38,550 bases of DNA. Source: Chloroflexi bacterium GWC2_73_18 (lineage in GTDB: Bacteria; Chloroflexota; Limnocylindria; Limnocylindrales; CSP1-4). A model generated the notes under the pieces. It was not told the origin of the DNA, ran no database searches, and saw only the letters and a list, made by a program, of their open reading frames with translations. The stretch covers positions 16,696 through 55,245 of the forward strand of contig MGMJ01000127.1 of NCBI GenBank assembly GCA_001794945.1, in the 5' to 3' direction. The position numbers were made by a program, and so were the translations under genes. Shown in pieces: positions 6,371 to 27,525 of the stretch. Within the stretch, counting starts at the first letter, position 1. Each line of letters opens with the position of its first letter.

Positions 6371-7018
6371 TCAGCCCCTCCCGCCCCAGCGGCGCCGCGC
6401 TCGGGCGAAGGCCCGCGCCAGCGCCGCGCGGTCGGCGTAGGCGCGCGGCCGGACGAGCGGCCGTGCCCCGCGGATCGGTGCTCCGCTCTGCGGGTCGACG
6501 GGGAGGACCTCGAGCCAGCAGGTCTCTCCTCGCTCCCAGTCGACCGCGGAGTAGCCGTAGAGGGCCACGCCGGCCCGCGTGTGGAGCTCCACGCGCCGGT
6601 AGGTCCGCTGTCCGGCGAAGGTCACCTCGCCGTCGAGCGCCACCAGCCAGGCCTGACCGGCCGCGCGGGCCGCGGCGAAGCGCTCCGCGGTCGTCTCCCG
6701 GATCACCTCGCCACGCAGCTCCTTGAGGCGCAGGTTGAAGGCGGCATCGCGCGCGGCGCCGATGTCGAGCCAGGCACCGCGCGGCAGCTCGAGCTCGACC
6801 AGCCGCCCCTCCACCCAGGCGGTCCCGCGCTCCGCGTAGGCGACCGCCAGGTCGTTCTCGGAGGAGACGTCGCGCAGCCCGTCGGCGAGCCCGCGCACCA
6901 GCTCGACCGACGTCTCGTAGAGGCTCGTCTCGACCCATGCCTGGGCGAAGAAGGCGTCCTCCGCGCGGCGCCAGCGGCGTTCCAGCTCGGGGTCGATGGT
7001 GACCGCCCGCCCGCTCAC
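6371..7018 (-). CDS. Unrecognised 215-residue protein, CoM/fdrA operon
   Basis: I do not recognise this family. The protein is soluble, has no signal peptide or membrane segment, and has a single Cys. It begins with an acidic, aromatic helical part (PELERRWRRAEDAFFAQAWVE) followed by alternating strands (TFAGQRTYRRVELHTR; VALYGYSAVDWERGE) and an Arg-rich C-terminal helix. Its GTG start overlaps the DUF1116 stop (GTGA) and its end lies 3 nt from the FmdB-like gene. Such coupling to DUF1116 and fdrA suggests a structural or assembly subunit of the same complex; this is inference from position only. Confidence 0.75.
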   Translation of the reverse strand: MSGRAVTIDPELERRWRRAEDAFFAQAWVETSLYETSVELVRGLADGLRDVSSENDLAVAYAERGTAWVEGRLVELELPRGAWLDIGAARDAAFNLRLKELRGEVIRETTAERFAAARAAGQAWLVALDGEVTFAGQRTYRRVELHTRAGVALYGYSAVDWERGETCWLEVLPVDPQSGAPIRGARPLVRPRAYADRAALARAFARARRRWGGRG

Positions 7019-8460
7019 GTCGGGCCCTCCTGCACGCCCGCCGCGCTCCCCGGCAGCGCGACCAGGGCGTCACGGAAGACCTCGAGCGGTGCGCGGGCGA
7101 CACCGGCGCCGATCTGGCCGGCCTCCGGGTCGCGCTCGTGGACGACCCCGGTGTCGATGACCGGGACGATGCCGGTCTCCACCACCAGGCGCACGTCGAT
7201 GCCGACCGGCGTCCCGGCGAAGCCGAGGGCCGGGACGGTGAAACCCGGGTGCGCGGCCAGCGTGATCGTGCGCATCTCCTCGGTGACGGCGAGCTGGTCC
7301 GCGACCGAGCCGCCGACGAAGGCGGCCATCGTCGGCGCCGCCGCCAGCGCCATCCCGCCGAGACCGACGACCTCGAGGATGGCGCTGTCGCCGATATCCC
7401 CGGCGGCGTCGGCGACCCCGAAGCCGGAGTGGTAGACCGCCTCGTCCATCGGCACGGCCGGGGCGACCGACCAGCGCTCGCCCAGCCCCCCGACGCGGAG
7501 CGCGAAGTCGACGCCGTTGCGGCTCATCCCGGTCACCACGCTGCTCCAGGGGACGCCGTGGGCCGCGTCGGCGGCGACCCGGCAGGCGGCCATCGTGACG
7601 GTGAGCGAGAAGAGCGAGTTCGCCTCCAGGAGGCGGACGGCGCGCGCCGCGACCGGACCCGGGACGCCGGCCTCCAGGAGCGGGCCAGCGAGACCGCGCA
7701 GGAGGAGCGCCGTGGTGGCGACGCAGCGCGCATGCAGCTCGTCGCCCATCTGGAGCGACTGGGCGAACAGGCCGAAGAGGTCGATCCCGCCGGCCCGGTC
7801 GAGCGCCGCCGAGAGCGTGCCAGCCAGCTCGTCGTGGAACCAGCGGAGCCGATCGAGCGCCCCGGCATCGGGGTTGCCGAGCCAGAGACTCCGTCCGCGC
7901 CCCTCGTTGATCGGGCTGAAGGCGGCCAGGCCGCTCGCCTCGTCGCGCGCGACGTGGACCGCCATCGAGGGCGAGACGACCGCCGCCATGGGGCAGGCGA
8001 CGGCGTGGTCGTACGCCGGCGCGAGCCGGATCTCGCCCGACTGGAGCGCCCGTACTGCGCTGTCCACGTCGGGCGCCCAGCCTTCGAAGACGGCGGCCCA
8101 GGCAGCAGCCCGCCGGTGGGGACCGCACATCCGCGCGTACCCGATCGGCGGCCCGGCGTGGAGGAGGAGCCGTCCATCCCGGAGCGCCGGGACCACTTCC
8201 CCGGCAGGCCGCACGCCGACCCAGCGCGGCCGGGCCCGGAAGAGCCGGGCCATCGTCTCGGCGTTCGCCGCCGCGATCCGCTCCCGCACGGCGCGATCGG
8301 CCACCAGGAGTCGCGCCAGGTCGGCGTCGCCGCCGGCCGGCGGGCGCCACGCGACCTCGGTGACGGGGACGCCCTGGGCGCGCAGTGCCTCGGCGAAGAC
8401 GTCGAGGCCGACGTTGACGACGCGGGGCGGCGTCGCGGCCAGGAGCCGGCTCTCGCTCAC
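7015..8460 (-). CDS. DUF1116 protein (YlbE/AllG-like)
   Basis: This 481-residue protein matches the DUF1116 family, the invariable neighbour of FdrA. The N-terminal ANAETMARLFRARPRWVGV, GPPIGYARMCGPHRRA and the later SRNGVDFALRVGGLGERW are typical. In E. coli the DUF1116 protein (YlbE, AllG) is a required part of the oxamate carbamoyltransferase. No membrane helices are convincing, so it is probably cytoplasmic. The GTG start lies 4 nt after the OsmC stop. Length agrees with the family (about 420-480). Its location inside an operon that also encodes ComA is the unusual point. Confidence 0.88.
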   Translation of the reverse strand: MSESRLLAATPPRVVNVGLDVFAEALRAQGVPVTEVAWRPPAGGDADLARLLVADRAVRERIAAANAETMARLFRARPRWVGVRPAGEVVPALRDGRLLLHAGPPIGYARMCGPHRRAAAWAAVFEGWAPDVDSAVRALQSGEIRLAPAYDHAVACPMAAVVSPSMAVHVARDEASGLAAFSPINEGRGRSLWLGNPDAGALDRLRWFHDELAGTLSAALDRAGGIDLFGLFAQSLQMGDELHARCVATTALLLRGLAGPLLEAGVPGPVAARAVRLLEANSLFSLTVTMAACRVAADAAHGVPWSSVVTGMSRNGVDFALRVGGLGERWSVAPAVPMDEAVYHSGFGVADAAGDIGDSAILEVVGLGGMALAAAPTMAAFVGGSVADQLAVTEEMRTITLAAHPGFTVPALGFAGTPVGIDVRLVVETGIVPVIDTGVVHERDPEAGQIGAGVARAPLEVFRDALVALPGSAAGVQEGPT

Positions 8461-10544: not shown

Positions 10545-11585
10545 TCAGGTCGGGGCACCCATCATAGCCGGAGCACTCTCCGCGTAGTGCCGATGACGGG
10601 CGTAGAGGATCGGCTCGCCGCCCGTGTGCAGGAAGACGACCGTCGCCGCGCGCGGGATCTCGCCGCGGCGCACCAGGTCGATCAGCCCGGCCAGCGCCTT
10701 GGCCGTGTAGACCGGGTCGAGGACGAGTCCCTCGCGCTCGTAGGCGAGCCGGAGCGCGGCATCGCCCTCGGGCGAGGCGAGCCCGAAACCCGGGCCGAGG
10801 TAGCGCTCCTCGACGTGGACCTGCCGGCGGCCGATGCGCACGCCAAGGCGGAGGAGGCGCGCCGTCCCGCGGGCGAGATCGAGGAGTCGCTCGACACTCT
10901 CCGCACGCGGCCGGCTGACGAGGATGCCGAGGACCCGGTACGGCGCCCCGAGCCAGGCGGCGCCGGCGATCAGCCCCGCCTGCGTCCCGCAGGAGCCGCT
11001 CGCCGTCACCAGCAGGTCGGGCCGGACGTCGAGCGCCACGAGCTGCGCCGCCAGCTCGGCACTCGCCTCGACGTAGCCGGCGTCGCCGAGCGGGGTCGCC
11101 CCGCCGCGGCGGATGAGGCAGGGGCGACGCCCGGCGGTCCGCAGCTCGGCGGTCAGGGCATCGGCCGCCGGCTCGGTCGACTCTCGGTCATCGCTCCCGG
11201 TGAAGACGAGCCGCGCGCCGGCGAGGGTGTCGAGGAGCAGGTTCCCCTCGCGCGTCTCAGGCGGCCGCCCGTAGAGGACGGCGATCGGCTCGAGCCCGGC
11301 GACGCGCGCCGCGGCCACCGCGGTGCGCACGCAGTTCGACTGCGGGCCACCGACGGCGATCAGCGTGTCGGCCCGGCGGCGCAGCGCGTCGCCCAGCAGG
11401 AACTCGAGCTTGCGCACCTTGTTGCCGCCGCCGGCGAAGCCGGTCAGGTCGTCGCGCTTCAGCAACAGCCGCGCCAGGCCGACCGCCGCGGCCAGCCGCG
11501 GTGCGTCGTGGAGCGGGGTCGGCAGGTGCGCCAGGGGGAAGCGGGGCAACTCGACGGGGAGCGGACGCTGGCCAGGGAAGCCCAT
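10545..11585 (-). CDS. PLP enzyme, D-cysteine desulfhydrase/ACC deaminase family (XcbE-like)
   Basis: This 346-residue fold-type II PLP enzyme has the Schiff-base lysine in FAGGGNKVRKLEFLLG, a following GGPQSNCVRTAVAAA phosphate and substrate loop, and SGSCGTQAGLIAGA. Family length and order match DcyD-like proteins. In isolation it would be called D-cysteine desulfhydrase. Next to comA and two fumarase-superfamily lyases, it matches instead the PLP enzyme of the bacterial CoM pathway, which thiolates a vinyl- or aldehyde-type sulfonate. The assignment rests on neighbourhood, since no substrate-determining residue could be checked here. It starts 12 nt after the upstream lyase and ends 14 nt before the flavoenzyme. 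Confidence 0.85.
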   Translation of the reverse strand: MGFPGQRPLPVELPRFPLAHLPTPLHDAPRLAAAVGLARLLLKRDDLTGFAGGGNKVRKLEFLLGDALRRRADTLIAVGGPQSNCVRTAVAAARVAGLEPIAVLYGRPPETREGNLLLDTLAGARLVFTGSDDRESTEPAADALTAELRTAGRRPCLIRRGGATPLGDAGYVEASAELAAQLVALDVRPDLLVTASGSCGTQAGLIAGAAWLGAPYRVLGILVSRPRAESVERLLDLARGTARLLRLGVRIGRRQVHVEERYLGPGFGLASPEGDAALRLAYEREGLVLDPVYTAKALAGLIDLVRRGEIPRAATVVFLHTGGEPILYARHRHYAESAPAMMGAPT

Positions 11586-11597
11586 CGGCCGTGCTTC

Positions 11598-12935
11598 TCA
11601 GCCGTCGAGGACGCGGTCGACGAGCGCCTCGGCGAGACCGGTCGAGGGCGTGGAGAGAAGCCGCTCGAACTCGTCGGCCGCGAGGAGCCCGCCGGTCACC
11701 GGGTCCTCGCGCAGCTCGTCGCGGAGCGCCCGACCGGCGCCGCGGGCACGAGCGGCGGCGGCGTGTACCCTCGCGTGGGCCGTCTGCTTGCCGACGAGCC
11801 GGGCGAGCGCCAGCATCACCGCCTCGGCGGCGACCTCCTCCTGGTGCGCCTCGAGGTTGCGGCGCATCGCCTCGGCCCGTACCTCCAGACCGTCGAGCAG
11901 CTCGCGGGCGAGGCGGAGCGCGGCGCCGGTCGCCAGGCACGCCCCGGGGATCGCCGCCCACTCGCTCTTCCAGCTTCGCCCGTCGCGCTCGTGGTCGCCG
12001 ACGAGCGCCTCGAGCAACAGGTCGGCGTCACGGCGCACCAGCCGCGCCAGGGTGCCGAGGTGCTCGGCACGCTCGGGGTTCCGCTTCTGGGGCATGGTGA
12101 TGCTGCCGACGTCGTCGCCCCGGGCCGGCTCGGCCAGCTCGCCGATCTCGGGCCGCTGCAGGTTGTAGACCTCGTGGCCGATCCGGTCGAGGGCGCCGGT
12201 GACGAGCGCCAGCCAGCCGACGAACTCGGCGAAGCGGTCGCGCGCCGCCGTCCAGCTGATCGCCGGTGTGCCGAGGCCGAGGCGCGCCAGGACGCGCGCC
12301 TGCAACTCGAGGCCGCGCGGCCCGTAGCCGGAGAGCGTGCCGACGCCGCCGGCGAGCTGCCCGACCCCCAGCCGGGGCCGCATCTGCGTCAGCCGCTCGC
12401 GGTGGCGCCGCAGCTCGTCGAGCCAGCCGGCCGCCTTGAAGCCGAAGGTGATCGGCAGACCGGCCTGCCCGTGGGTGCGACCGAGCATCGGCGTCGAGCG
12501 ATGCGCCCGTGCCAGCTCGGCGAGGCGGCCCTCGATCGCATCGAGATCGCGCTCGGCGAGATCGGCGACGGCGAGCAGCGTCCGCGCGCACCAGGTATCG
12601 GCGATGTCCTGGACGGTCGCCCCGTAGCAGATCCACTCCCCGGCGCCGTCCCGGCAGCGTCGCGCCCGCTCGCGGATCAGGCCGAGCAGCGAGTGTCCCG
12701 TCTCGGCGTAGCCGCGCCGGACCTCGTCGAGGTCGACGGGCTCGCCACGCATCACCCGCGCGATCTCCGGCCCCGCCACGGCGGGGATGATGCCGACCGC
12801 CGCCTCCTCCTCCGCCAGCACGGCGAGGACCTCGCACCAGCCCCGTGTCCGCCCTTCGTCGTCGAAGAGCGTGCGCAGCTCGTCGCTCCCCCAGGCCGTG
12901 CCGAAGATCCGCGAGTCGATCGGATGGACCGACAT
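11598..12935 (-). CDS. Aspartase/fumarase-superfamily lyase, PurB/PcaB-like (XcbC/XcbD candidate)
   Basis: This 445-residue protein has intact superfamily landmarks: GRTHGQAGLPITFGFKAAG (general-acid histidine region) and the signature GSITMPQKRNPE with the catalytic serine of the mobile loop, plus GATVQDIADT. The architecture is closest to adenylosuccinate lyase and 3-carboxymuconate cycloisomerase. In the bacterial CoM pathway, distinct members of this superfamily act after phosphosulfolactate synthase, one eliminating phosphate from phosphosulfolactate. The position two genes after comA suggests one of these roles, but which cannot be told from sequence alone. A true PurB is less likely because no purine genes are adjacent. 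It is 3 nt from the preceding lyase gene. Confidence 0.82.
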   Translation of the reverse strand: MSVHPIDSRIFGTAWGSDELRTLFDDEGRTRGWCEVLAVLAEEEAAVGIIPAVAGPEIARVMRGEPVDLDEVRRGYAETGHSLLGLIRERARRCRDGAGEWICYGATVQDIADTWCARTLLAVADLAERDLDAIEGRLAELARAHRSTPMLGRTHGQAGLPITFGFKAAGWLDELRRHRERLTQMRPRLGVGQLAGGVGTLSGYGPRGLELQARVLARLGLGTPAISWTAARDRFAEFVGWLALVTGALDRIGHEVYNLQRPEIGELAEPARGDDVGSITMPQKRNPERAEHLGTLARLVRRDADLLLEALVGDHERDGRSWKSEWAAIPGACLATGAALRLARELLDGLEVRAEAMRRNLEAHQEEVAAEAVMLALARLVGKQTAHARVHAAAARARGAGRALRDELREDPVTGGLLAADEFERLLSTPSTGLAEALVDRVLDG

Positions 12936-12938
12936 CGC

Positions 12939-14441
12939 TCAGCCGGCGGCCGCCGCGCGCGCACGCTCCAGGAGGCGCATCTCCGCCGCGGCCAGCGCCG
13001 CGGCACGCGCCGCCGTCCAGCTCCGCTGGCGTCGCAGCGATCGACGCTGCTCGGTGAGCAGCGTCCGGACCGCCGCTGGCGCGGCGCCTCCGATGCCGGT
13101 CCGGCGGGCCACGGCGGCACCGGGATCGAGCGCCTCCCGCACGGCCGCGTCGTCGAGCCCGAGCGGCACGCCGGCGACCTCGCGCGCCGCCATGTCGAGC
13201 GCGGCGGCGTCGATCCCGTCCTCCTCCCGACCAGCGGCGAGAGCGAGCCGGACCGCCTCCCCCACGATCCGGTGCGCCGTCCCGAACGGGATGCCGCGGC
13301 GCATCATGATCAGCTCGGCCAGGTCGTTGGCGGCCAGGTAGCCCCGGCGCGCGGCGGCCGCCAGGCGCTCGCGGTCGAAGCGGAGGCCGTCGACCACCTC
13401 GGCCAGAAGCGCGGCCGCCTGCTCGGCCAGCTCGAGCGCGGCGGGCACCTCGTCCTGGGCGAAGATGCGGGGGTCGGGTTGCCCGCTCGCCGTCCGCGCC
13501 ACGGCCGCCGCCCCGGCCAGCCGACCGATGAGGCGTCCGGCGACGCCGCGCACGAAGACGAGCGCGTAGGGGTTCTTCTTCTGCGGCATCGCCAGGCTGA
13601 CCCGGCTCGCCCGGTCGGCCAGCTCGACGAAGCCGAACTCCCGCGTCCCCCAGATCTGGAGGTCCTCGGCGAGCCGATCGAGGGCGAGGCCGACGCTGGC
13701 CGCGATCGCGCTCAGCTCGACCGCCAGGTCGGCCTGCCAGTTGGCGTCGCGGGCGTGGGGGACGACCCCGGCGAAACCCAGCGACTCCGCCAGCGCGGCG
13801 CGGTCGAGCGGCAGCGTGGCGCCGCTGGTGCAGCCGGCGCCGGCGGGGCTCAGGTCGACCCGCCCGAAGGCGGCGTGAAGCCGGGCCGCGTCGCGTCGGA
13901 GCGGGTAGGCGTAGCCGAGGAGTGCATGGGCGAGCGTCGTCGGCTGCGCCGCCTGCCAGTACGTGTAGTCGACTGCCAGGGTCCGCATGTGCCGCGCCGC
14001 CAGCGTCACCAGCACCGTCTGCAGCCGCTCGAGGGCGCCGGCGAGGGAGAGGAGACGGCGCCGCGCGGCCAGGTGGAAGGCGACCGTGGCGGCCTCTCGT
14101 CGCGGACGGCCCACGAGCAGGTAGCCGGCGTCGCCCCCGATCCTCTCGCGCAGCCGGGCCTCGCGGTTCATGACCAGGTCACCCTGCGCCGGGTCGAGGC
14201 CGGCCCCTCTCGCGCCCGGCCCGCCCCCGCCCGTCGCGCCCGAGGCGCCCAGCTCGAGCAGGGCGACGACCAAACGCCTGCCGGCGTCGGCCGGCACATG
14301 TCCGCCATCGAGGAGCGTCAGGACGTGCGCCAGGTCGGCGAGCGTCAGCTCGGGGAGGAGCGAGGGCGCCGCCGCCAGCTCGAGCCGGTAGGCGGAGCGG
14401 ATCAGCTCGGCGGACGGGCCCTCGACGAGCCGGCCGCTCAC
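12939..14441 (-). CDS. Argininosuccinate-lyase-like protein with altered active site (XcbC/XcbD candidate)
   Basis: This 500-residue protein has the overall layout of argininosuccinate lyase: GDLVMNREARLRERIGG, PTTLAHALLGYAYP and SLAMPQKKNPYALVFVRG. Key positions differ from genuine ArgH. The substrate loop 'GRSRND' is GRPRRE, the 'THLQ' histidine is Tyr in DYTYWQAAQP, and the glycine before the loop serine is Val (VSLAMPQKKNP), while the serine itself remains. Such changes suggest a different substrate. The GTG start lies 7 nt after the comA stop. With the neighbouring PurB-like lyase it forms the pair expected for phosphate elimination and the next step of the bacterial CoM pathway. It should not be annotated as argH. 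Confidence 0.82.
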   Translation of the reverse strand: MSGRLVEGPSAELIRSAYRLELAAAPSLLPELTLADLAHVLTLLDGGHVPADAGRRLVVALLELGASGATGGGGPGARGAGLDPAQGDLVMNREARLRERIGGDAGYLLVGRPRREAATVAFHLAARRRLLSLAGALERLQTVLVTLAARHMRTLAVDYTYWQAAQPTTLAHALLGYAYPLRRDAARLHAAFGRVDLSPAGAGCTSGATLPLDRAALAESLGFAGVVPHARDANWQADLAVELSAIAASVGLALDRLAEDLQIWGTREFGFVELADRASRVSLAMPQKKNPYALVFVRGVAGRLIGRLAGAAAVARTASGQPDPRIFAQDEVPAALELAEQAAALLAEVVDGLRFDRERLAAAARRGYLAANDLAELIMMRRGIPFGTAHRIVGEAVRLALAAGREEDGIDAAALDMAAREVAGVPLGLDDAAVREALDPGAAVARRTGIGGAAPAAVRTLLTEQRRSLRRQRSWTAARAAALAAAEMRLLERARAAAAG

Positions 14442-14448
14442 GGTTCGC

Positions 14449-15285
14449 TCACCGGCGCGGCCGCCCTGGCGCGCCGGCCGGCTCCCGCTGCAGCGCCGCC
14501 CGCAGCGTCTCGAAGCGGAGGCCGCGTCGGAGCGCCTCCAGCGCGAGCACCTCGCCGGGAGCGATGTTGGCGAGGTTGACGTTAGCCCCGAGGCGAAGGA
14601 TCAGGTAGGCCTGCTGGTCGTGCAGCGGCGCCTCCCAGAGGATGCGGGACCGGTCGGGCAGCGCCGCCAGAAGCGCGTCCAGGATCCCCTCGTCGACGTG
14701 GCCGGTCGCGTCGAAGATCCCGGTGCCCCGTCCCGACTCGCGCGCCTCGATCGTGACGAAGGCGACGCCGAGCGCCAGGTCGGCCCCCGCCCGGTCCGCC
14801 ATCTCGGCGGGCGTCAGCTGCCGCCGCGGGTCCTTGCGTCCCACCTCGCTGATGACCGTGAGCCCGGCGTCGAGCGCCCGTTCGATCGCCTCCTGCCGCG
14901 ACGCGGCCGGGAGATCGACGGTGCCGTCGCTCACCTCGACGCCGGTGAACCCCAGCTCGCAGGCGCGACGCAGGAACGCCGCCAGGTGCCCGGTCGCCCA
15001 CGCCGCCTCGAGCAGCGTGCCGCCGGGGTAGACGACGATCCCGGCCTCGACGAGCCGCGCGACCTTCCGCGCCAGGAGCGCTCCGTCGAGCGCGGCCGAG
15101 CTCCCGAACCCGAGCTTGACGTGATCGACCAGGTGACCCGCGGTCTCCGCCAGGTCGTCGACGGCCCGGAGGCCGAGTCCCTTGTCGATGATGGCCGTGA
15201 TCCCGGTGGCCCGGGGCTTCTCTGTGCGCGCCCCGAGGAGCGCCCCGATCGCCTCGCCCCAGGCGCCGTCGTGTCGCCCGCTCAT
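14449..15285 (-). CDS. comA: Phosphosulfolactate synthase (ComA/XcbB-like)
   Basis: This 278-residue TIM-barrel enzyme adds sulfite to phosphoenolpyruvate to give phosphosulfolactate, the first committed step of CoM and sulfolactate synthesis. Family motifs are well preserved: DKGLGLRAVDDL, VDHVKLGFGSSAAL, VYPGGTLLEAAW, GFTGVEVSDGTVDLP and VISEVGRKDPR. The ATG at 15285 overlaps the upstream stop (ATGA); the 767-residue track ORF is a shadow extension. Bacteria also use ComA for sulfolactate (as in spores) and for other sulfonates, so product identity needs the rest of the pathway. Here that is supplied by the two lyases, the PLP enzyme and the reductase encoded directly downstream. Confidence 0.92.
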   Translation of the reverse strand: MSGRHDGAWGEAIGALLGARTEKPRATGITAIIDKGLGLRAVDDLAETAGHLVDHVKLGFGSSAALDGALLARKVARLVEAGIVVYPGGTLLEAAWATGHLAAFLRRACELGFTGVEVSDGTVDLPAASRQEAIERALDAGLTVISEVGRKDPRRQLTPAEMADRAGADLALGVAFVTIEARESGRGTGIFDATGHVDEGILDALLAALPDRSRILWEAPLHDQQAYLILRLGANVNLANIAPGEVLALEALRRGLRFETLRAALQREPAGAPGRPRR

Positions 15286-16160
15286 GGCGTCCCGACCAGC
15301 TCGCGGAGACCGGCCGCAACGTCCTCCAGGGTGGCGCCCCAGGGGACGACGACGACCTGTCCATCGCGCTCGATCCCGTGCTCGAGAAGGCAGCACTTCA
15401 GGAGCGTCGGCTCGCTGCGCGCGCCGGCGAGGCGGCGCGGGCAGATCTCGGCCGAGGGCGGCACGTCGCCGTAGAGATGCCGGTGGATCTGTCGGCTCCG
15501 CTCGCAGCCGACGAGCGTCCAGTCGGCGCGCGGCGGGCGCTCCTCGAGGAAGTGGACCGGGGCGTCGAGCGCCTCGAACCCGGACGAGCGGCAGGGGAAG
15601 AGGTAGCCGCCGCGGCCGGGGCCGGCCGCCGCCGCCAGGTCGCGCAGGTCGATCCGCTCGAGCTCGGGGCGTGTCGCCGCCAGCGGCGCCGTCGCCAGCA
15701 CCCGCTCGACCAGGTCCCACAGCTTGGGCGGCTCGGGGGGCGCCACCTCGACGACGCGGACGACCGCCGGGTCGGGGTGGGCGATGAAGTTGACGTGCTC
15801 GTAGCGCCCGAGGACGACCAGGGTCTCGGCCGGGCCGACCCCGAGCTCGGCCGCCCTGGCCGCCAGCGCGGACGGAAGGCCGGTGTCGACCGAGCGGTCC
15901 ACGACGAGGTGCGTCCGTTCGGGCGGTGAGAGCCAGGTCGCGCCGGTGATCGGCGCGAAGAGCGGCTCGCGGCTCGCCTTCTCGACCGCGGCCACGGCCA
16001 CCGCTCCGCCGGTGCGGAAGACGATGAAGTCGGTGTGGCGGTAGGCCTCGCGCCCGACGATCGTCGTCAGCCCCTGCTCGGTGAGGGGGAAGTCGGCCAC
16101 CTGGAAACTGACGCGCCGGTACGGGAGCGGCACGAGGTTGCGCACGCCGGGAGCTTCCAT
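15282..16160 (-). CDS. Unrecognised 292-residue protein preceding comA
   Basis: I cannot assign a family. The ATG at 16160 (MEAPGVRNLVPLPYRRV) is chosen over the track start because it falls 5 nt after the DUF2877 stop. It overlaps comA by ATGA, so translation is coupled to it. The protein is soluble, with alternating strands and helices in the first 140 residues (YRHTDFIVFRTGGAVAVAAVEK; HLVVDRSVDTGLPSALAARAAELG). The second half contains five cysteines in GYLFPCRSSGFE, LVGCERSRQIH, SAEICPRRLAG and LLKCCLLEHGIE. Those Cys with the adjacent His could bind metal or an Fe-S cluster. As an intimate partner of comA it may be a pathway-specific enzyme or sulfite/thiol carrier. Confidence 0.75.
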   Translation of the reverse strand: MEAPGVRNLVPLPYRRVSFQVADFPLTEQGLTTIVGREAYRHTDFIVFRTGGAVAVAAVEKASREPLFAPITGATWLSPPERTHLVVDRSVDTGLPSALAARAAELGVGPAETLVVLGRYEHVNFIAHPDPAVVRVVEVAPPEPPKLWDLVERVLATAPLAATRPELERIDLRDLAAAAGPGRGGYLFPCRSSGFEALDAPVHFLEERPPRADWTLVGCERSRQIHRHLYGDVPPSAEICPRRLAGARSEPTLLKCCLLEHGIERDGQVVVVPWGATLEDVAAGLRELVGTP

Positions 16161-16165
16161 CGCCG

Positions 16166-16990
16166 TCAGACGACCGGCACGACGGCCGCGGCGAGGCGCC
16201 ACGCCCGTCCCGCCAGGCGCACGCCCGCCAGCATATCCGCGCCCGACGTCTCACCGATCGCCAGGAGCGGCGCCGGGTCGGGCGGCGCCGTCGCTCCGAG
16301 GCGGAGGAGTGCCTCCAGCAGGCCGGCCAGCGGCGCCGTGACCTCGCCGTCAGCCGCCGCCGCCAGGAGCTGGCCGGCGAGCCGCGTCGTGTGCGGCAGG
16401 GCCTCCGCCACGACCGCCGCCCGGAGGCTGTTCCCCGGGCCGGCGAGCCCGGCCGCCTCGACCCACGCCCCGAAGGCGAGAGCCGCAGCGAGCAGATCGT
16501 CTCCCGATGGGGTGAGTCCCGGCCCGAGGCCGGCCAGCGGCCCGGCCGCAGTCGCGGCTGCACCGGCGTCGCCGGCAGCGAGGGCCGACTCGAGGCCGGC
16601 GAGGGAGGCCGCGCTTGCCACCGCGGCGATGCCGCGCTCGAGGCCGGGGGAGAGGGCCGCCCGTCGCTCGACGAGGTCGAGCCGTCGCGCGAGCTCGGCC
16701 GGCCCCACGGCCCCGGAGGCGGGCACCGGGCGCGCTCGCCAGCGGACGGCACCGTGGAGGTCCAGGCGAGGCGGGGCGCTCACCTGGCGCAGGTCGTACG
16801 GGGACGTCCGGTCGAGCCGGGCGGTGAAGGGCCCGTCGGGGAGGTCGTGCCGGACGAGCGAGACGAGCGTCCCGTCTCCCGTCCGCGCCAGGATCAGCGC
16901 CCGTTCGAAACGCGCGTGGAGCGACCAGTCACCACCCGCCTCGAGCAGGCGCGCCGCCCGATCGTCGAGGCTGATCACGCGGATACTCAT
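16166..16990 (-). CDS. DUF2877 protein (YlbF/AllH-like)
   Basis: This 274-residue DUF2877 protein carries the family fingerprint LAGLGPGLTPSGDDLLAAAL at about residues 155-174. DUF2877 proteins occur with FdrA and DUF1116; in E. coli the three (AllF, AllG, AllH) were reported to form oxamate carbamoyltransferase. Here it is the first gene of the large operon, about 8.5 kb ahead of DUF1116 and about 11 kb ahead of fdrA, with the CoM-type genes in between. The TAGCAT hexamer ends 7 nt before its ATG, so the transcript is probably leaderless. Cytoplasmic, no membrane segment. Confidence 0.88.
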   Translation of the reverse strand: MSIRVISLDDRAARLLEAGGDWSLHARFERALILARTGDGTLVSLVRHDLPDGPFTARLDRTSPYDLRQVSAPPRLDLHGAVRWRARPVPASGAVGPAELARRLDLVERRAALSPGLERGIAAVASAASLAGLESALAAGDAGAAATAAGPLAGLGPGLTPSGDDLLAAALAFGAWVEAAGLAGPGNSLRAAVVAEALPHTTRLAGQLLAAAADGEVTAPLAGLLEALLRLGATAPPDPAPLLAIGETSGADMLAGVRLAGRAWRLAAAVVPVV

Positions 16991-17014
16991 CGGCCGAATG
17001 CTAGCATCCGCCCC
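16991..17014. promoter_or_regulatory. Bidirectional promoter with one palindromic -10 for two leaderless genes
   Basis: Only 24 bp separate the divergent DUF2877 (ATG at 16990, minus) and AIR-synthase-like (GTG at 17015, plus) starts. Its centre is the perfect palindrome ATGCTAGCAT (16998-17007). On the plus strand TAGCAT (17002-17007) is followed by 7 nt and GTG. On the minus strand the same palindrome gives TAGCAT (17003-16998) followed by 7 nt and ATG. Both genes therefore appear to start transcription at or next to their start codons from overlapping -10 elements. No clear -35 is seen on either side. Confidence 0.7.
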
Positions 17015-17998
17015 GTGCCTGCCTCGCCGTCCGCGGCCGCCCTGCCGCCCCTCCCCGAGCTGGTGGAGCGCCTGCGCGCCTCCCCGGCCTGGCAGCGCAA
17101 GCGCGAGCTGACGCTCCTCTCGCGCGGCGAGCTGCGTCTCGAGGCCGACGTCGGCGACGACGCCATCGCACTCCCGGACGGTGACGGGTACCTGCTCCTG
17201 GCCGCGGAGGTGATGTGGCCGCCGATGGTCGCCGCCGAGCCCGAGCTAGCCGGTCGCAACGCCGTGCTCGTGAACGCGAACGACATCTACGCCATGGGCG
17301 GGCGGCCGATCGCCCTCCTCGACACGCTCGTGGCGACCGGGCTCGCCGAGGCGGAGGCGGTCCTTCGGGGCGTCGCCGCCGGCGCCGCCCGCTACGGGAT
17401 CCCCGTGGTGGGCGGCCACCTGACGGCGGCCGGCGGCGTCACCTCGCTCGCCGCCTTCATCGCCGGACGCGCGCGCCGTCTCCTTTCGGGCCGCGCCGCG
17501 GTGCCGGGCGACGCCCTCCTGCTGCTGACCGGGCCGCGCGGACGCTTCCACGCCCGCTTCCCCTTCTGGGACTGCTCCGGTGAACGGAGCGACGAAGAGC
17601 TGCGCGCCGACCTCGAGCTGCTCCCGGCGATCGCCGAGGCCGGCCTCTGCGATGCCGCGCGCGACGTCTCCATGCCGGGGCTGCTGGGATCGGCGCTCCA
17701 GTTTCTGGAGGGCTCCGGGGTCGGGGCTGCGATCGACCTGGCGGCGCTCCCCTACCCGCCCGAATCGGAGGGCCGCGAGCTGGACTGGCTCCTCGCCTTC
17801 CCGGGCTACGGCTTCCTGCTCGCCGTCGAGGAGAGGCACGTCGACGCCGTGGCGGAGCGCGCCGCGGCGCGCGGCCGCGTCTGTCGCCGGATCGGCAGGG
17901 TGACCGCCGAGCGCCGCGTGACGGTCGGTCGCGACGGCGAGCACGCGCTGCTCTGGGATCTCGGCCGCGAGCCCTTCACCGGTTTCGGGCCGGCCTGA
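17015..17998 (+). CDS. Sll0787-type AIR-synthase-like protein (NitF-like)
   Basis: This is an AIR synthase/PurM-superfamily protein of about 327 residues. The phosphate and metal loop reads VLVNANDIYAMGGRPIALLDTL, followed by VVGGHLTAAGGVTSLAAF and a C-terminal domain with GLLGSALQFLEGSGVGAAIDL. This is the Sll0787/MSMEG_0567-C-terminal type found in Nit1C clusters, where its reaction is unknown; PurM-fold enzymes usually activate a carbonyl with ATP. The GTG at 17015 is used because a -10-like TAGCAT ends 7 nt earlier. The 535-residue track ORF is a shadow extension. It is divergent from the CoM-type operon and ends 3 nt from the convergent GNAT gene, its usual functional partner. Confidence 0.88.
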   Translation: MPASPSAAALPPLPELVERLRASPAWQRKRELTLLSRGELRLEADVGDDAIALPDGDGYLLLAAEVMWPPMVAAEPELAGRNAVLVNANDIYAMGGRPIALLDTLVATGLAEAEAVLRGVAAGAARYGIPVVGGHLTAAGGVTSLAAFIAGRARRLLSGRAAVPGDALLLLTGPRGRFHARFPFWDCSGERSDEELRADLELLPAIAEAGLCDAARDVSMPGLLGSALQFLEGSGVGAAIDLAALPYPPESEGRELDWLLAFPGYGFLLAVEERHVDAVAERAAARGRVCRRIGRVTAERRVTVGRDGEHALLWDLGREPFTGFGPA

Positions 17999-18001
17999 CG
18001 A

Positions 18002-18493
18002 TCAGGCGCCCTCGCCCGGCTCTTCGCTCCAGCCCGCCCGCATCAGCCGGTGCGGGACGCCGGCGTACTCGACCATCTCGCCGATGCCGACCCACCCGAC
18101 GTGCTCGAAGAAGCGGACGTTCTGGGGCTGGATGTAGGCCAGGAAGACGCGCGCCCCGCGCCGGCGCACCTCGTCCTCAGCCGTCTTCACCAGGGCCGGG
18201 GCGACGCGCAGCCGCGTGCCCCGGTAGCCTCCGGCGACGGCCAGCCGGCCACCGAACCAGGTGCCGTCGGGGCGACGGAAGCAGCGCACCGCGCCCACCA
18301 CGTCGCCGGCCGGCTGGCAGATGGCGACGATGTGGAGCGTCCCGGGATCGTCATCGAACTCGTCGACGTCGCTCTCCGCGAAGAGGCCCTGTTCGCGGAC
18401 GAAGGCCTCTTCGCGGATCGCGTAGTGCGCCCGAAGTTCCTCGGCGGACCCGGCAGGCCGGCAGACGAGGGTACGCCCCGGTTCCGCCGTCAC
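18002..18493 (-). CDS. MSMEG_0567/Sll0786-type GNAT acetyltransferase (NitE-like)
   Basis: This GNAT-fold protein has about 163 residues: YAIREEAFVREQGLF, DDPGTLHIVAICQPAGDVVGAVR, the acetyl-CoA loop region GGYRGTRLRVAPALV, and a C-terminal VRFFEHVGWVGIGEM typical of this family. The start is taken at a GTG (18493); the 439-residue track ORF is a shadow extension over the upstream membrane gene. In Nit1C clusters the GNAT and AIR-synthase proteins sit together or are fused, and here they are tail-to-tail with 3 bp between stops. Substrate unknown. Confidence 0.87.
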   Translation of the reverse strand: MTAEPGRTLVCRPAGSAEELRAHYAIREEAFVREQGLFAESDVDEFDDDPGTLHIVAICQPAGDVVGAVRCFRRPDGTWFGGRLAVAGGYRGTRLRVAPALVKTAEDEVRRRGARVFLAYIQPQNVRFFEHVGWVGIGEMVEYAGVPHRLMRAGWSEEPGEGA

Positions 18494-18531
18494 GCCGGAC
18501 CCGCGTCTCGAGGATGTCCCGCCTAGAAGAG

Positions 18532-19092
18532 CTAGAAGCCCAGGTTGAGATCGATGCCCAGGGAGATCACCACCGCGGGCAGGAAGAAGGTCCAGATCGC
18601 GGTGACCACCAGGATCCAGCCCAGCACGTTCGCCGGCAGGCGACCGTAGACGGTGGCCGCGATCGCGGCGAAGGCGACCGTCCAGACGACCATGACCGTC
18701 TGGAAGAGCCACAGGCCGTCGAAGAAGATGAGGAACGGCAGCGACAGGACGGCGATGGGGATCGAGATGTTGGCGACCGGCTTCAGGTCGAGGCCGTGGA
18801 TCTCCACCGCCCCCAGCACGATGAAGAAGAGGGCGTAGAGCGAGGCCAGGCCGGCCACGGCCACGAAGTTGCCGCCGCTGACCAACAGGTAGAAGACCGT
18901 CCCGAATGCCGTGACCCCGCCGACCAGGCTGATCCAGCCGACCGTCTTGAGCGGATGGGCTCCGCCCTCGGCCGGCTCGGCGCCGTAGCCGAGAAAGAAG
19001 AGCCCGTTCGCCCAGGCGGCGAGGCCAAGGCACATGGTCAGCACGGTGAGCGGCAGGGGATTCTCGAGCGGTAGATGCGTGGTCAGGTCCAT
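18532..19092 (-). CDS. AmiS/UreI-like amide or urea channel, six TM helices
   Basis: The 186-residue protein is almost wholly membrane-embedded, with six predicted helices (about residues 12-35, 48-70, 72-97, 103-126, 128-146 and 152-178). Size, helix count, and segments such as SLYALFFIVLGAVEIHGLDLKP and the last helix ending TFFLPAVVISLG resemble the AmiS/UreI family of proton-gated urea and short-amide channels. I base this on pattern only. The strong GGAAGGAG before the ATG supports the start. Its position between the radical SAM and GNAT genes suggests it admits or releases the small nitrogenous substrate of the cluster. An unrelated six-helix protein remains possible. Confidence 0.65.
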   Translation of the reverse strand: MDLTTHLPLENPLPLTVLTMCLGLAAWANGLFFLGYGAEPAEGGAHPLKTVGWISLVGGVTAFGTVFYLLVSGGNFVAVAGLASLYALFFIVLGAVEIHGLDLKPVANISIPIAVLSLPFLIFFDGLWLFQTVMVVWTVAFAAIAATVYGRLPANVLGWILVVTAIWTFFLPAVVISLGIDLNLGF

Positions 19093-19142
19093 GAGTCACT
19101 CCTTCCCATCGGGCGACGGGCTTGAGCGCCCGCCGCTCTCGA

Positions 19143-19182
19143 AATCTAGGGACGCACATGTGGGGCGGTCCGTGTGGACCGC
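19143..19182 (-). promoter_or_regulatory. Candidate promoter with operator-like dyad before the AmiS-like gene
   Basis: On the minus strand a TAGATT -10-like hexamer (19143-19148) lies upstream of the AmiS-like gene. A perfect inverted repeat with 7-bp arms (GCGGTCC-gtgt-GGACCGC, 19165-19182) covers the expected -35 position, and a CACATGTG palindrome (19156-19163) lies between. No T-run follows on either strand, so an operator is more likely than a terminator for the upstream radical SAM gene. Confidence 0.45.
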
Positions 19183-19224
19183 TCGGCTCGAGTCCCGGCG
19201 GCACGGCGCCCCGGCCGGCGCCTC

Positions 19225-20373
19225 TCAGGTGCGGGGCCGGACCTCGACAAGCGGGAGCTGGCGCCCGTTCCCGTTGAACTTCCCCTGTACGAAGGCCGGC
19301 AGCCCGCTGCAGGCGCCGCACCGCGTGCAGCCGGCCTTGCTGACCAGGTGGGTGACGCCTCGCCGCTCGAGCATCTCCGCCACCGCCCGGTAGATCCCTT
19401 CCATCACCTCGCGGGGCGGCGGCGGCACGTCCTGCATCTCCGTGCCCAGGATGGGCCGGAGCGGGACGACGAACGGGAAGACGCCCATGTCGACGAGTCG
19501 CTCGCAGCCGGCGATGATCGACTCGCTGCTCTCACCCAGTCCGACGATGATGTAGCTGCTCACCTGGTACTCGCCGAAGACGTCGACCGCCTTCTCGAAG
19601 GCCCGGTAGTAGGTGTCGACGCTGGTCCGGGCCTTGCCCGGCAAGATCCGCTCGCGGACCTCCTGGTCGAACGACTCGAGATGGAGACCGATCGAGTCCG
19701 CCCCGGCCTCTTTGACCTGCCGGAGGACATCGAGATCGTCCGGCGGCTCGAACTGGACCTCGATCGGGAGATCGACGGCCGCCTTCACGGCGCGCGCGCA
19801 GCGCGCCATGTAGAGGGCCCCCTTATCGGTCTCGTTGATCGTGCCCATGGTCATGACGAAGTGCCTGACGCCGTCGAGGCGAACGGCCGCTTCCGCCACC
19901 TCGGCCAGCTGCGCCGGCGTCTTGACGGGGATCGTCGCCTTGTTCCGCAGGCTGATGCCGATCCCGCAGAAGCGACAGCGGTCGGCGTCGCTGTTCCAGC
20001 GGATGCAGGTCTGGACGACGGTCGTCGCGAGGACGTCCGCGCCGTGCCGGACCGCGATCTGCCAGTAGGGAACGCCGTCCGCCGTCGAGAGCGCATAGAA
20101 GCGGGGGCGATCGGGGAAGGCGACCGGCGTGAGCGGCTCGCCGTGTCGCGTGATGACGAAGCCGGAGCCGTCCGCTCGCACCGCATAGGGGGAATCCGTG
20201 GCGAAGCCGGCCATCGTCGGCACCATGACGGTCTGGCCGTCGAAGAGGAACGCCTTGTCGTCGGTCGGACCGGCGCCTCCCCGCCGTCCGATACTCGCGA
20301 CCGGCACCTCCAGCCGTGCTCCGCGGATCTGCAGATCGACGACGAGCTCTTCGAGATCGATCTTCTCGTTCAC
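19225..20373 (-). CDS. MSMEG_0568-type radical SAM protein (NitD-like)
   Basis: This 382-residue radical SAM enzyme belongs to the family typical of Nit1C clusters. The iron-sulfur motif has the unusual spacing CX9CX2C (CIRWNSDADRCRFCGIG, about residues 120-136) rather than CX3CX2C. The TIM barrel follows, with HFVMTMGTINETDKG and EVQFEPPDDLDVLR, and the C-terminus carries a second cysteine group, CTRCGACSGLPAF, possibly an auxiliary cluster. The GTG start has GAGGAG 8 nt before it. The reaction is unknown; in nitrilase-containing clusters it is linked to cyanide or nitrile metabolism. Here it follows the MSMEG_0572-type gene by 82 bp and no nitrilase is present. Confidence 0.9.
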   Translation of the reverse strand: MNEKIDLEELVVDLQIRGARLEVPVASIGRRGGAGPTDDKAFLFDGQTVMVPTMAGFATDSPYAVRADGSGFVITRHGEPLTPVAFPDRPRFYALSTADGVPYWQIAVRHGADVLATTVVQTCIRWNSDADRCRFCGIGISLRNKATIPVKTPAQLAEVAEAAVRLDGVRHFVMTMGTINETDKGALYMARCARAVKAAVDLPIEVQFEPPDDLDVLRQVKEAGADSIGLHLESFDQEVRERILPGKARTSVDTYYRAFEKAVDVFGEYQVSSYIIVGLGESSESIIAGCERLVDMGVFPFVVPLRPILGTEMQDVPPPPREVMEGIYRAVAEMLERRGVTHLVSKAGCTRCGACSGLPAFVQGKFNGNGRQLPLVEVRPRT

Positions 20374-20455
20374 CGTCGGGCTCCTCGTCGGATGAAATGA
20401 CCGGGGCGGCCGTCCGACCGGAGCGGCCGCCCGCGTCGTTCCGGGTCTGTCGACC

Positions 20456-20944
20456 CTACAGGGTCCAGGTGTTGAGGATAAGCGCCTTGTCGCGCCAGTG
20501 TCCGATCAGGCTGTCGAGCACGTCGAGCGGGCTGAAGGGGCGGACCCCGTCGATCAGGTCGTCCTCGCGGTGGCCGTAGAGCGCCCCGAGGGCGAAGCGG
20601 CACGCGTAGATCTTGGTGCCCTCTCGCATGATCGTCTTGAGCTGGTTGTTGATGGCCAGGTGGCCCGGGAAGCCCTCCGCGCCGACCGATGGCCAGCCCC
20701 GGGTCCCCGAGGCCATCAGAACGCCCGGGCCGTAGAGGACCATCGTGGTCTCGAAGCCCTTGCGCTGGATGCGGGTGGTGGTCAGCATGTTGACGAGGCC
20801 CACGGAACCCTCGTAGGGCACCGTGTGCATCATCACCAGGGCCTTCTCGCCGGGGTTCGCCTTGTAGTCCGGGAAGACCTTCTCAGTGTGGTCGTAGAGG
20901 AACTGGCCCTCCTGCGCCCGCGGGATCGCGACACGTTCCGCCAT
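20456..20944 (-). CDS. MSMEG_0572/Sll0783-family nitrogen-starvation protein (NitB-like)
   Basis: This 162-residue protein belongs to the MSMEG_0572/Sll0783 family, with GEKALVMMHTVPYEGSVGLVN, QRKGFETTMVLYGPGVLMA and KIYACRFALGALYGHRE. It looks like a DsrE-type alpha/beta fold with a conserved cysteine (YACRFALG). The cyanobacterial homologue is induced on nitrogen starvation; the biochemical role is unknown. AAGGAGG lies 9 nt before the ATG. It is followed by the radical SAM gene and preceded, after 48 bp, by the amidohydrolase gene, which occupies the region where I would expect the nitrilase of a standard Nit1C cluster. Confidence 0.88.
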   Translation of the reverse strand: MAERVAIPRAQEGQFLYDHTEKVFPDYKANPGEKALVMMHTVPYEGSVGLVNMLTTTRIQRKGFETTMVLYGPGVLMASGTRGWPSVGAEGFPGHLAINNQLKTIMREGTKIYACRFALGALYGHREDDLIDGVRPFSPLDVLDSLIGHWRDKALILNTWTL

Positions 20945-20992: not shown

Positions 20993-21880
20993 TCAGCCCA
21001 TGACACCGGCCGTGGCCTTGTGCTCGCTGCCGCTGGGGATCGCGTACAGCTCCTCCGCGTTCTTGTAGAAGACGCGGTCCTTCAGCTCCTCGCTGATGTC
21101 GGTCCCCTCGATCCGGTAGTACTCGCTCCAGAAGTCGCTCCAGGGCGTGTCGGAGGCGAAGAGGATCCGATCCCACCCCTGGCCCGACTCCTGCAGCTCG
21201 TGCAGCATCCAGCGCGACCCGAAACCGACCGTCCAGGTCATGTCGCCGTAGACCTTGTAACCCTCGCGGACGAAGTCGAGGAACCGGGGGACCCACTTGA
21301 TGTGCCCGGACGTGCCGCCGCCCAGGTGGACGACGTAGATCTTGATGCGCTTGCCGTATTCCCTGATGAACTCCATCGCGTTGCTGATGTCCGAGCCGCC
21401 GGCCGGGCTGGTGTGGATGTGGAAGACCAGGTCGTTCTTCTCGGCCGCGTCGACGGAGAGATCCCAGAGGGCCCTCGTCTCGGCGTCCCATTCGGACACC
21501 TTGTAGGTGCCGCCCAGGAGACAGGTCGCCTTGAGCGCCCGGATGCCCCGCTCGCCGGCATGCTGGAGCGCTTCTTTGACACGGTCGACGTCCTTCAGCA
21601 TCCCCGAGACCCAGAGCGCGCCGACCAGCCGATCCTCGTGCGCCACGGCATCGACGACGAGCGGATTGAGCGTGAACGGCTGGGCCGAGTCGGGGATCCC
21701 GTAGTTGGAGATCACCATCTGCCGCTCGACACCGTGGTCGTCCATGTGCTTGATCATGGCGGCCGCCGTCGGGTAGTCGAACACCGTCGGGTTCAACGGC
21801 GTGGGGAACCCGTAATAGGGATAGGCGGCCATCTCACCGATATGGCTGTGAGCGTCGAAGACGCGCCGCTGTACCTTCAT
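20993..21880 (-). CDS. Amidohydrolase-2 family metal-dependent TIM-barrel hydrolase or decarboxylase
   Basis: This 295-residue protein of the amidohydrolase_2 (ACMSD-like) superfamily has a complete metal site: HxH in FDAHSHIGEM (residues 8-14), His in LVFHIHTSPAG, His in VVHLGGGTSGH and the late Asp in ILFASDTPWSDFW. Members hydrolyse C-N or C-O bonds or decarboxylate. It is the first gene of the amidohydrolase-NitB-NitD set, with a promoter-like TTGCCT-N17-TATCCT about 110 nt upstream. Because no nitrilase is found anywhere in the window, this enzyme may supply the hydrolytic function of the cluster on a different substrate (inference). Confidence 0.88.
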   Translation of the reverse strand: MKVQRRVFDAHSHIGEMAAYPYYGFPTPLNPTVFDYPTAAAMIKHMDDHGVERQMVISNYGIPDSAQPFTLNPLVVDAVAHEDRLVGALWVSGMLKDVDRVKEALQHAGERGIRALKATCLLGGTYKVSEWDAETRALWDLSVDAAEKNDLVFHIHTSPAGGSDISNAMEFIREYGKRIKIYVVHLGGGTSGHIKWVPRFLDFVREGYKVYGDMTWTVGFGSRWMLHELQESGQGWDRILFASDTPWSDFWSEYYRIEGTDISEELKDRVFYKNAEELYAIPSGSEHKATAGVMG

Positions 21881-26508: not shown

Positions 26509-27525
26509 TCAGCTCGTGGCGGGGACGATGCGGGTTCCGTCGTTGCCGAGAAGGGCGTCGGCGAGCGCCTCGGGCGCGGTCACGATCGCCTCCCGACCGC
26601 CGTCCTCGATGAAGCGCACCGCGGCGCGGATCTTGGGACCCATCGAGCCAGGCGGGAACTGCCCCTCGTCCAGGTAGCGGCGCGCCTCGGCCAGGGTCAT
26701 GACCGCGACGTCACGTTGCGACGGCGTCCCGAAGTCGAGCGCCACCCGACGCACGCCGGTCAGCAGCATGAGCGTGTCGGCGTCCACCAGCGCGGCGAGC
26801 CGCTCGGCGGCAAGATCCTTGTCGATCACCGCCTCCACGCCGCTCAGGTGCCCGTCGGGGCCGCGAACGACCGGGATCCCTCCCCCGCCTCCTGCGATGA
26901 CGATCGTACCCGTGCCGATCAGCGCTCGGATCGCGCGCGCCTCGATCACCTCGATCGGCTGCGGCGAGGGGACGACCCGCCGCCAGCCGCGGTCGGCGTC
27001 CCTGACCACCGTCCAACCTTTCTCGGCGGCGAGCTTCTCCGCCACCTCGCGATCGTAGAACGGGCCGATCGGCTTCGTCGGGTTCTGGAAGGCGGCGTCG
27101 TTCGGGTCGACCAGCACCTGCGTCACCACGCTGGCCACGGCGGGCGGCGCCCCGCTCGCGTCGAGGAGCGAAGCGGGCAGTTCGGCGCGGGCCTGCATCA
27201 GCAGGTCGCCGAGCGTCTGCTGGATCAGGTAGCCGATCTGGCCCTGGGTCATCGCGCCGAGGACATCGAAGGGCTGATCGGCGACGCCCAGCGCCCTGCC
27301 GGCCTCCGCCTGCAGGGCGAGCGCGCCGACCTGCGGTCCGTTGCCGTGGATGATCACCAGGCGGTGGCCGGCGGCGATCAGTGGCAGGACCTCCTCGCAC
27401 ATGACGCGCACGTTGGCGAGCTGCTCGGCGTTGGTGCCGAGCTCGTTCGCCCGCGTGATGGCGTTGCCGCCGAAGGCGGCGACGATGGTCCGGCGGCCGG
27501 GCTCGCCGGCCAGCGATCCGGTCAC
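26509..27525 (-). CDS. arcC: Carbamate kinase
   Basis: This 338-residue carbamate kinase interconverts carbamoyl phosphate plus ADP with carbamate plus ATP. Family motifs are complete: VAAFGGNAI, IIHGNGPQVGALALQ, IVIAGGGGGIPVV, VIDKDLAAERLAALV, LMLLTGV and GSMGPKIRAAVRF. It starts at a GTG 94 bp after the aldehyde dehydrogenase gene, with a TATCAT hexamer at that gene's stop as a possible own promoter. In purine/allantoin fermentation a carbamate kinase takes carbamoyl phosphate from the FdrA/DUF1116/DUF2877 enzyme. All three of those genes are in the window, so a functional link across about 10 kb is reasonable. No arginine deiminase genes are seen here. Confidence 0.95.
   Translation of the reverse strand: MTGSLAGEPGRRTIVAAFGGNAITRANELGTNAEQLANVRVMCEEVLPLIAAGHRLVIIHGNGPQVGALALQAEAGRALGVADQPFDVLGAMTQGQIGYLIQQTLGDLLMQARAELPASLLDASGAPPAVASVVTQVLVDPNDAAFQNPTKPIGPFYDREVAEKLAAEKGWTVVRDADRGWRRVVPSPQPIEVIEARAIRALIGTGTIVIAGGGGGIPVVRGPDGHLSGVEAVIDKDLAAERLAALVDADTLMLLTGVRRVALDFGTPSQRDVAVMTLAEARRYLDEGQFPPGSMGPKIRAAVRFIEDGGREAIVTAPEALADALLGNDGTRIVPATS

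Follow-up and report, generated by a model that had tools for sequence, protein, structure and literature searches.

The 24-bp spacer at positions 16991–17014, which reads CGGCCGAATGCTAGCATCCGCCCC and separates two divergent genes in the window (the whole 38,550-nucleotide stretch of Chloroflexi bacterium GWC2_73_18 DNA analysed here), quite likely serves as a bidirectional housekeeping-sigma promoter, with overlapping −10 boxes that would direct leaderless mRNAs both ways. According to our model, a single palindrome would provide two antiparallel −10 boxes with common −12T/−11A base pairs, where a single housekeeping-sigma RNA polymerase at a time could bind, facing either way. Transcription would begin at or 1 base before each start codon, and the predicted products are leaderless mRNAs for an AIR-synthase-like gene on one side and for a DUF2877-CoM operon on the other. 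The missing −35 element would be offset on each side by an extended −10 (TGN), and selection would mainly keep a TANNNT box ~5–7 nt before each start; box sharing would follow from the very short spacer and be dispensable. This reading draws on sequence geometry, genome-wide motif enrichment, recurrence and comparative data. Against it stand the number of close relatives with the gene pair (two), a box on one side only in a more distant genome (G380) and the lack of a raw excess of the layout across the class.

The elements of the spacer, in window coordinates, are:

16998–17007, both strands: 10-bp palindrome ATGCTAGCAT, comprising two putative antiparallel −10 boxes with common −12T/−11A at 17002–17003
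17002–17007, plus strand: putative −10 box TAGCAT of the AIR-synthase-like gene, with an extended −10 TGC at 16999–17001, followed by CCGCCCC (7 nt) and the GTG at 17015
17003–16998, minus strand: putative −10 box TAGCAT of the DUF2877-CoM operon, with an extended −10 TGC at 17006–17004, followed by TCGGCCG (7 nt) and the ATG at 16990

A first-pass annotation of this DNA had described a palindrome giving TAGCAT on both strands, 7 nt from each start codon, and its coordinates are exact. The TGN ahead of each TAGCAT is the CA of the opposite-strand TAGCAT read as TG. The 10-mer occurs once in the window (0.01 copies expected) and is also single-copy in a 0.98-Mb sample of the genome; the dyad extends weakly past it, with 18 of the 24 spacer positions symmetric. 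No Shine-Dalgarno sequence is present in the spacer on either strand, and no candidate −35 hexamer was found on either side of it. A gene caller that ignores upstream motifs also picked both start codons, and the orthologues of both genes in a close relative (G003) begin at the same residues. The usual −10 distance predicts start sites at 17014 and 16991, 1 nt before each codon and 23 bp apart, with the codons themselves, 25 bp apart, as alternative predicted sites. This refines the earlier claim that both transcripts start at the codon itself: the codon is kept as one predicted position and the base before it is added.

The genes on the two sides, with their profile matches, are:

17015–17998, plus strand: AIR-synthase-like gene of the sll0787 family (TIGR04049, 325 bits, cut-off 321; PF00586/PF02769), GTG start
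16166–16990, minus strand: AllH/DUF2877-like gene, first of the CoM operon (PF11392, E 1.8e-17), ATG start
15282–16160, minus strand: XcbA-family gene (NF052538, 359 bits, cut-off 150)
14449–15285, minus strand: ComA, phosphosulfolactate synthase (TIGR03849, 294 bits, cut-off 280)
12939–14441, minus strand: XcbC-like lyase (NF052535, 488 bits, below the cut-off of 575)
11598–12935, minus strand: XcbD, 3-sulfopropionylcysteine synthase family (NF052536, 624 bits, cut-off 600)
10545–11585, minus strand: XcbE-like PLP enzyme (NF052537, 332 bits, below the cut-off of 450)

ComA/XcbB and relatives of XcbC, XcbD and XcbE thus lie in one operon, as in a bacterial coenzyme M (Xcb) operon; ComA, XcbD and XcbA score above their cut-offs, whereas XcbC and XcbE are best matches yet fall below theirs. 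These Xcb/ComA matches bear out the annotation of a CoM-type operon on one side of the spacer. On the other side, the AIR-synthase-like gene stands alone in its orientation, and 3 bp separate it from a convergent GNAT gene; radical SAM and MSMEG_0572-family genes lie on that side too. Such genes are companions in the Nit1C cluster (PMC1199592), and all four (radical SAM, GNAT, AIR synthase and the MSMEG_0572-type ORF) fall within 17015–20944, which together with the TIGR04049 match upholds the description of the AIR-synthase-like gene as Nit1C-type. A subfamily-1 (Nit1C) nitrilase gave no match above cut-off in the ~90% complete genome. Compared with the canonical Nit1C order, the AIR-synthase gene occupies its usual place beside the GNAT gene but is inverted, so that it would need a promoter of its own. 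An amidohydrolase gene (20993–21880) adjoins the Nit1C-like set. Also near the CoM and Nit1C genes are AllG, the AllH-like protein and an amino-acid-kinase family protein (7015–8460, 16166–16990 and 26509–27525), the last possibly a carbamate kinase, a trio hinting at an oxamate-carbamoyltransferase-like set.

A TANNNT box ~6–7 nt before an ORF is known to drive leaderless transcription (PMC12340547, PMC3160421). In ~0.98 Mb of the window's genome, sampled as stretches with genes called (692 starts, 86 divergent pairs), TANNNT was found at 6, 7 and 8 nt before 18, 20 and 13 of the 692 starts, compared with ~1–2 at control distances. Taken together, 51/692 starts carry the box at 6–8 nt against a background of 0.7%, an enrichment of ~10-fold (p ~1e-33), and the same peak is seen in two relatives. 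By gene class, the box precedes 28/172 divergent starts and 12/202 same-strand starts with a gap of >60 bp, as opposed to 1/201 operon-internal starts, a pattern that points to a leaderless promoter rather than a translation signal. TAGCAT is among the commonest boxes (5/51), and an extended −10 TGN stands ahead of 14/51 boxes, compared with 9% of all TANNNT (p 2e-4). At our locus, the box lies 7 nt before the start on both sides, matching the genome-wide peak, and neither start is preceded by a Shine-Dalgarno sequence. The leaderless reading of both genes, already proposed in the first-pass annotation, is well supported by these sequence features, and the AIR-synthase-like gene (17015–17998) and the AllH/DUF2877-like gene (16166–16990) are each probably leaderless.

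Conventional promoters inside the neighbouring gene, which would give one or both genes real 5′ leaders and leave the palindrome a secondary start at most, are unlikely, although >90% of the genes in this genome are not of the leaderless type: they are opposed by the absence of a Shine-Dalgarno sequence before either start and by boxes that, on both sides, sit at the genome's leaderless distance and persist in relatives.

A shared promoter with leaderless products both ways would combine two arrangements known separately. In bidirectional promoters, a distance of 18 bp between start sites is the commonest, and 10 and 23 bp are also common (PMC12825309). In our spacer, the opposite-strand −10 boxes overlap reciprocally at their key positions, with 17002–17003 as common −12T/−11A, and by this geometry the locus would belong to the known bidirectional class, with start sites predicted 23–25 bp apart. 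It resembles the symmetric −10 promoters described by Warman, Grainger, Wade and colleagues (PMC12825309, PMC10268837) in its overlapping symmetric boxes and its predicted 23-bp distance, within their 7–25-bp definition; however, those cases often pair one coding with one non-coding or antisense RNA, whereas here two leaderless mRNAs are predicted from an intergenic region that spans 24 bp in all. Similarly, the locus is like TANNNT leaderless genes (PMC3160421, PMC12340547, PMC3898074) in having ~6–7 nt to the start, no Shine-Dalgarno sequence, no −35 and a divergent or operon-first position, but those genes are usually described singly and not as a pair. The M. tuberculosis prpD (Rv1130)/Rv1129c genes are likewise divergent, and both of their mRNAs were mapped as leaderless, which is a prediction here; in the part of that report describing the pair, a common −10 box is not described, unlike at our locus (PMC3898074). 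At M. tuberculosis lysG/lysE, too, divergent promoters overlap and an inverted repeat is present, and lysE has a leaderless transcript as well, but that system differs in its 108-bp spacer and dedicated regulator and is not doubly leaderless from a common site (PMC5648196). The symmetry belongs to a known class, and the new part would be that both predicted products are leaderless mRNAs.

Within this genome, the TANNNT background in a 3-position window is 0.0074 per start, so that 0.005 both-sided pairs would be expected by chance among the 86 divergent pairs, compared with 2 observed at gaps of 6–8 nt. Independent leaderless usage (28/172) predicts ~2.3 doubly leaderless pairs and 2–4 are seen, so no special coupling between the two sides need be assumed. 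Of the 86 divergent spacers, the shortest two, at 20 and 24 bp, each have overlapping boxes and are doubly leaderless by sequence. The shorter separates a NUDIX/PHP pair (L114 10858–10877) and reads CAT-GGGGCCGTAGTATAGGGAGC-GTG; its −10 boxes, TAGTAT and TATACT, overlap and fit the 18-bp class.

The XcbA/AIR-synthase pair is present in 3/177 genomes of the class, and the close relatives that carry it are two, G003 and G077. In G003, the spacer is 21 bp (CGACGAATGCTACCATGGCTC) and contains TAGCAT-6-ATG on the minus strand and TACCAT-5-ATG on the plus strand; the boxes overlap and TGN precedes both, but the palindrome is imperfect. In G077, the spacer is 57 bp and holds two separate elements, TAGCAT-7-ATG on the minus strand and TAGCAT-6-GTG on the plus strand, with the operon-side box lacking TGN. 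TANNNT 5–7 nt before both starts is kept in both relatives, so that the putative leaderless boxes appear better conserved than their overlap. Since G003 lacks the perfect palindrome and the boxes of G077 are separate, selection appears to preserve each leaderless −10 individually and not the palindrome. The expectation that the palindrome and its 7-nt gaps would be conserved therefore fails on both counts: gaps are 6 and 5 nt in G003, and these two genomes rule out conservation of a perfect palindrome. Loss of the palindrome in relatives that keep the gene order, which the first-pass annotation had named as evidence against its reading, is found in one of the two (G077), and in G003 the boxes still overlap.

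In G380, a more distant genome from another family, comA and the AIR-synthase gene are arranged head to head across a 30-bp spacer that has a clear box on the comA side only (TACTAT-7-ATG). That locus (L043 5436–17759) comprises a CoM gene set with the head-to-head AIR-synthase-like gene and has GNAT and radical SAM genes close by, making it plausible that the CoM genes and the Nit1C-like genes are functionally linked. G433 has XcbA and CoM genes without the AIR-synthase gene and is therefore uninformative about the spacer; a scan of contigs with the AIR-synthase protein as query returned distant actinobacterial matches only.

The earlier statement that the two operons must compete for one polymerase site is too strong. 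Both orientations cannot be occupied at once, but weak promoters may be occupied so rarely that the exclusion has no effect: at the bidirectional promoters assayed in E. coli, polymerases competed only where one direction was strongly activated, basal activity otherwise being too low (PMC12825309), and in G077 the boxes do not overlap at all. It is improbable, more so than conventional promoters, that the common box is a regulatory device, with polymerase competition acting as a deliberate see-saw between CoM biosynthesis and the AIR-synthase-like gene. The boxes do physically overlap, competition does occur at bidirectional promoters under strong activation of one side (PMC12825309), and the AIR-synthase/CoM head-to-head order recurs in another family in G380; however, the absence of box sharing in G077, a number of doubly leaderless pairs (2–4) close to that expected from independent usage (2.3) and the lack of competition at basal E. 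coli promoters all count against such coupling. Least probable of the alternatives is that a dimeric regulator binds the palindrome as its operator (which might double as promoter) and that the resemblance to a −10 is secondary. The weak extension of the dyad (18/24) and the regulator-bound inverted repeat between the overlapping lysG/lysE promoters (PMC5648196) would suit an operator, but the 10-mer is unique in 0.98 Mb, which argues against a repeated operator, and relatives keep TANNNT before both starts with an imperfect dyad (G003) or none (G077), which disfavours the operator-only form in particular.

The bidirectional leaderless arrangement may extend beyond this locus. A class-wide search of 177 genomes for the exact 24-bp layout with fixed 7/7 spacing, which undercounts other spacings, showed no excess over a scrambled control (69 vs 70 genomes). 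The bare pattern count was therefore rejected as proof of enrichment and is useful only with gene context. With such context, a called gene start adjoined 8/30 layout matches exactly, on one or both sides, compared with 0/20 controls (p 0.01). Because the gene caller had been trained on the window's genome and is weak elsewhere, cases in other genomes were judged by Pfam matches and codon periodicity, with start codons placed from sequence. Several layout matches are flanked on both sides by long coding frames, and five such pairs were Pfam-checked: tyrS/PBP, aminotransferase/APH-type kinase, B12-binding/GNAT, HAD/tRNA-editing domain and fumarase/hydrolase.

In the genus g28, the tyrS/penicillin-binding-protein (PBP) spacer is 23–24 bp long (L202 1544–1573 and the orthologous spacers L234–L254). 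Overlapping TANNNT boxes lie on both strands in 16/16 aligned genomes, which were chosen by that pattern among loci found by tyrS homology, where 16/17 loci with readable starts matched; the seventeenth (G037) also has both boxes. The tyrS start has TAGCAT 6–7 nt ahead of it, and the PBP start, which a second in-frame ATG makes slightly ambiguous, has TACC[T/G/C]T at 7 nt. The sole variable box position stays within TANNNT, and several gap positions toward the PBP start vary. As judged from these alignments, the tyrS/PBP spacer is a better-conserved example than the CoM/AIR-synthase locus. We lean towards the view that doubly leaderless bidirectional promoters, with overlapping symmetric −10 boxes in a 20–24-bp spacer, are a recurrent and selectively maintained class here, including tyrS/PBP across one genus. 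The compact doubly leaderless layout had been called unusual, which holds in that it is rare per genome, but it recurs in the class (NUDIX/PHP, tyrS/PBP and other pairs).

If confirmed, bidirectional −10 symmetry and leaderless translation would be joined in a two-gene control region of ~20–24 bp with essentially no UTR, and the doubly leaderless class, if true, would set a lower size limit for a two-operon control region. The tyrS/PBP spacer (16 genomes) and the CoM/AIR-synthase spacer, with the separated boxes of G077, offer natural contrasts for the consequences of polymerase competition. Separately, a near-perfect 30-bp palindrome, CATTGATACAACCGTATGGTTGTATCAATG, was observed at a gene start in several genera (L165 1501–1530, L189 1501–1530), with a near copy in G136:C40; its form suggests either an operator or a repeated element.
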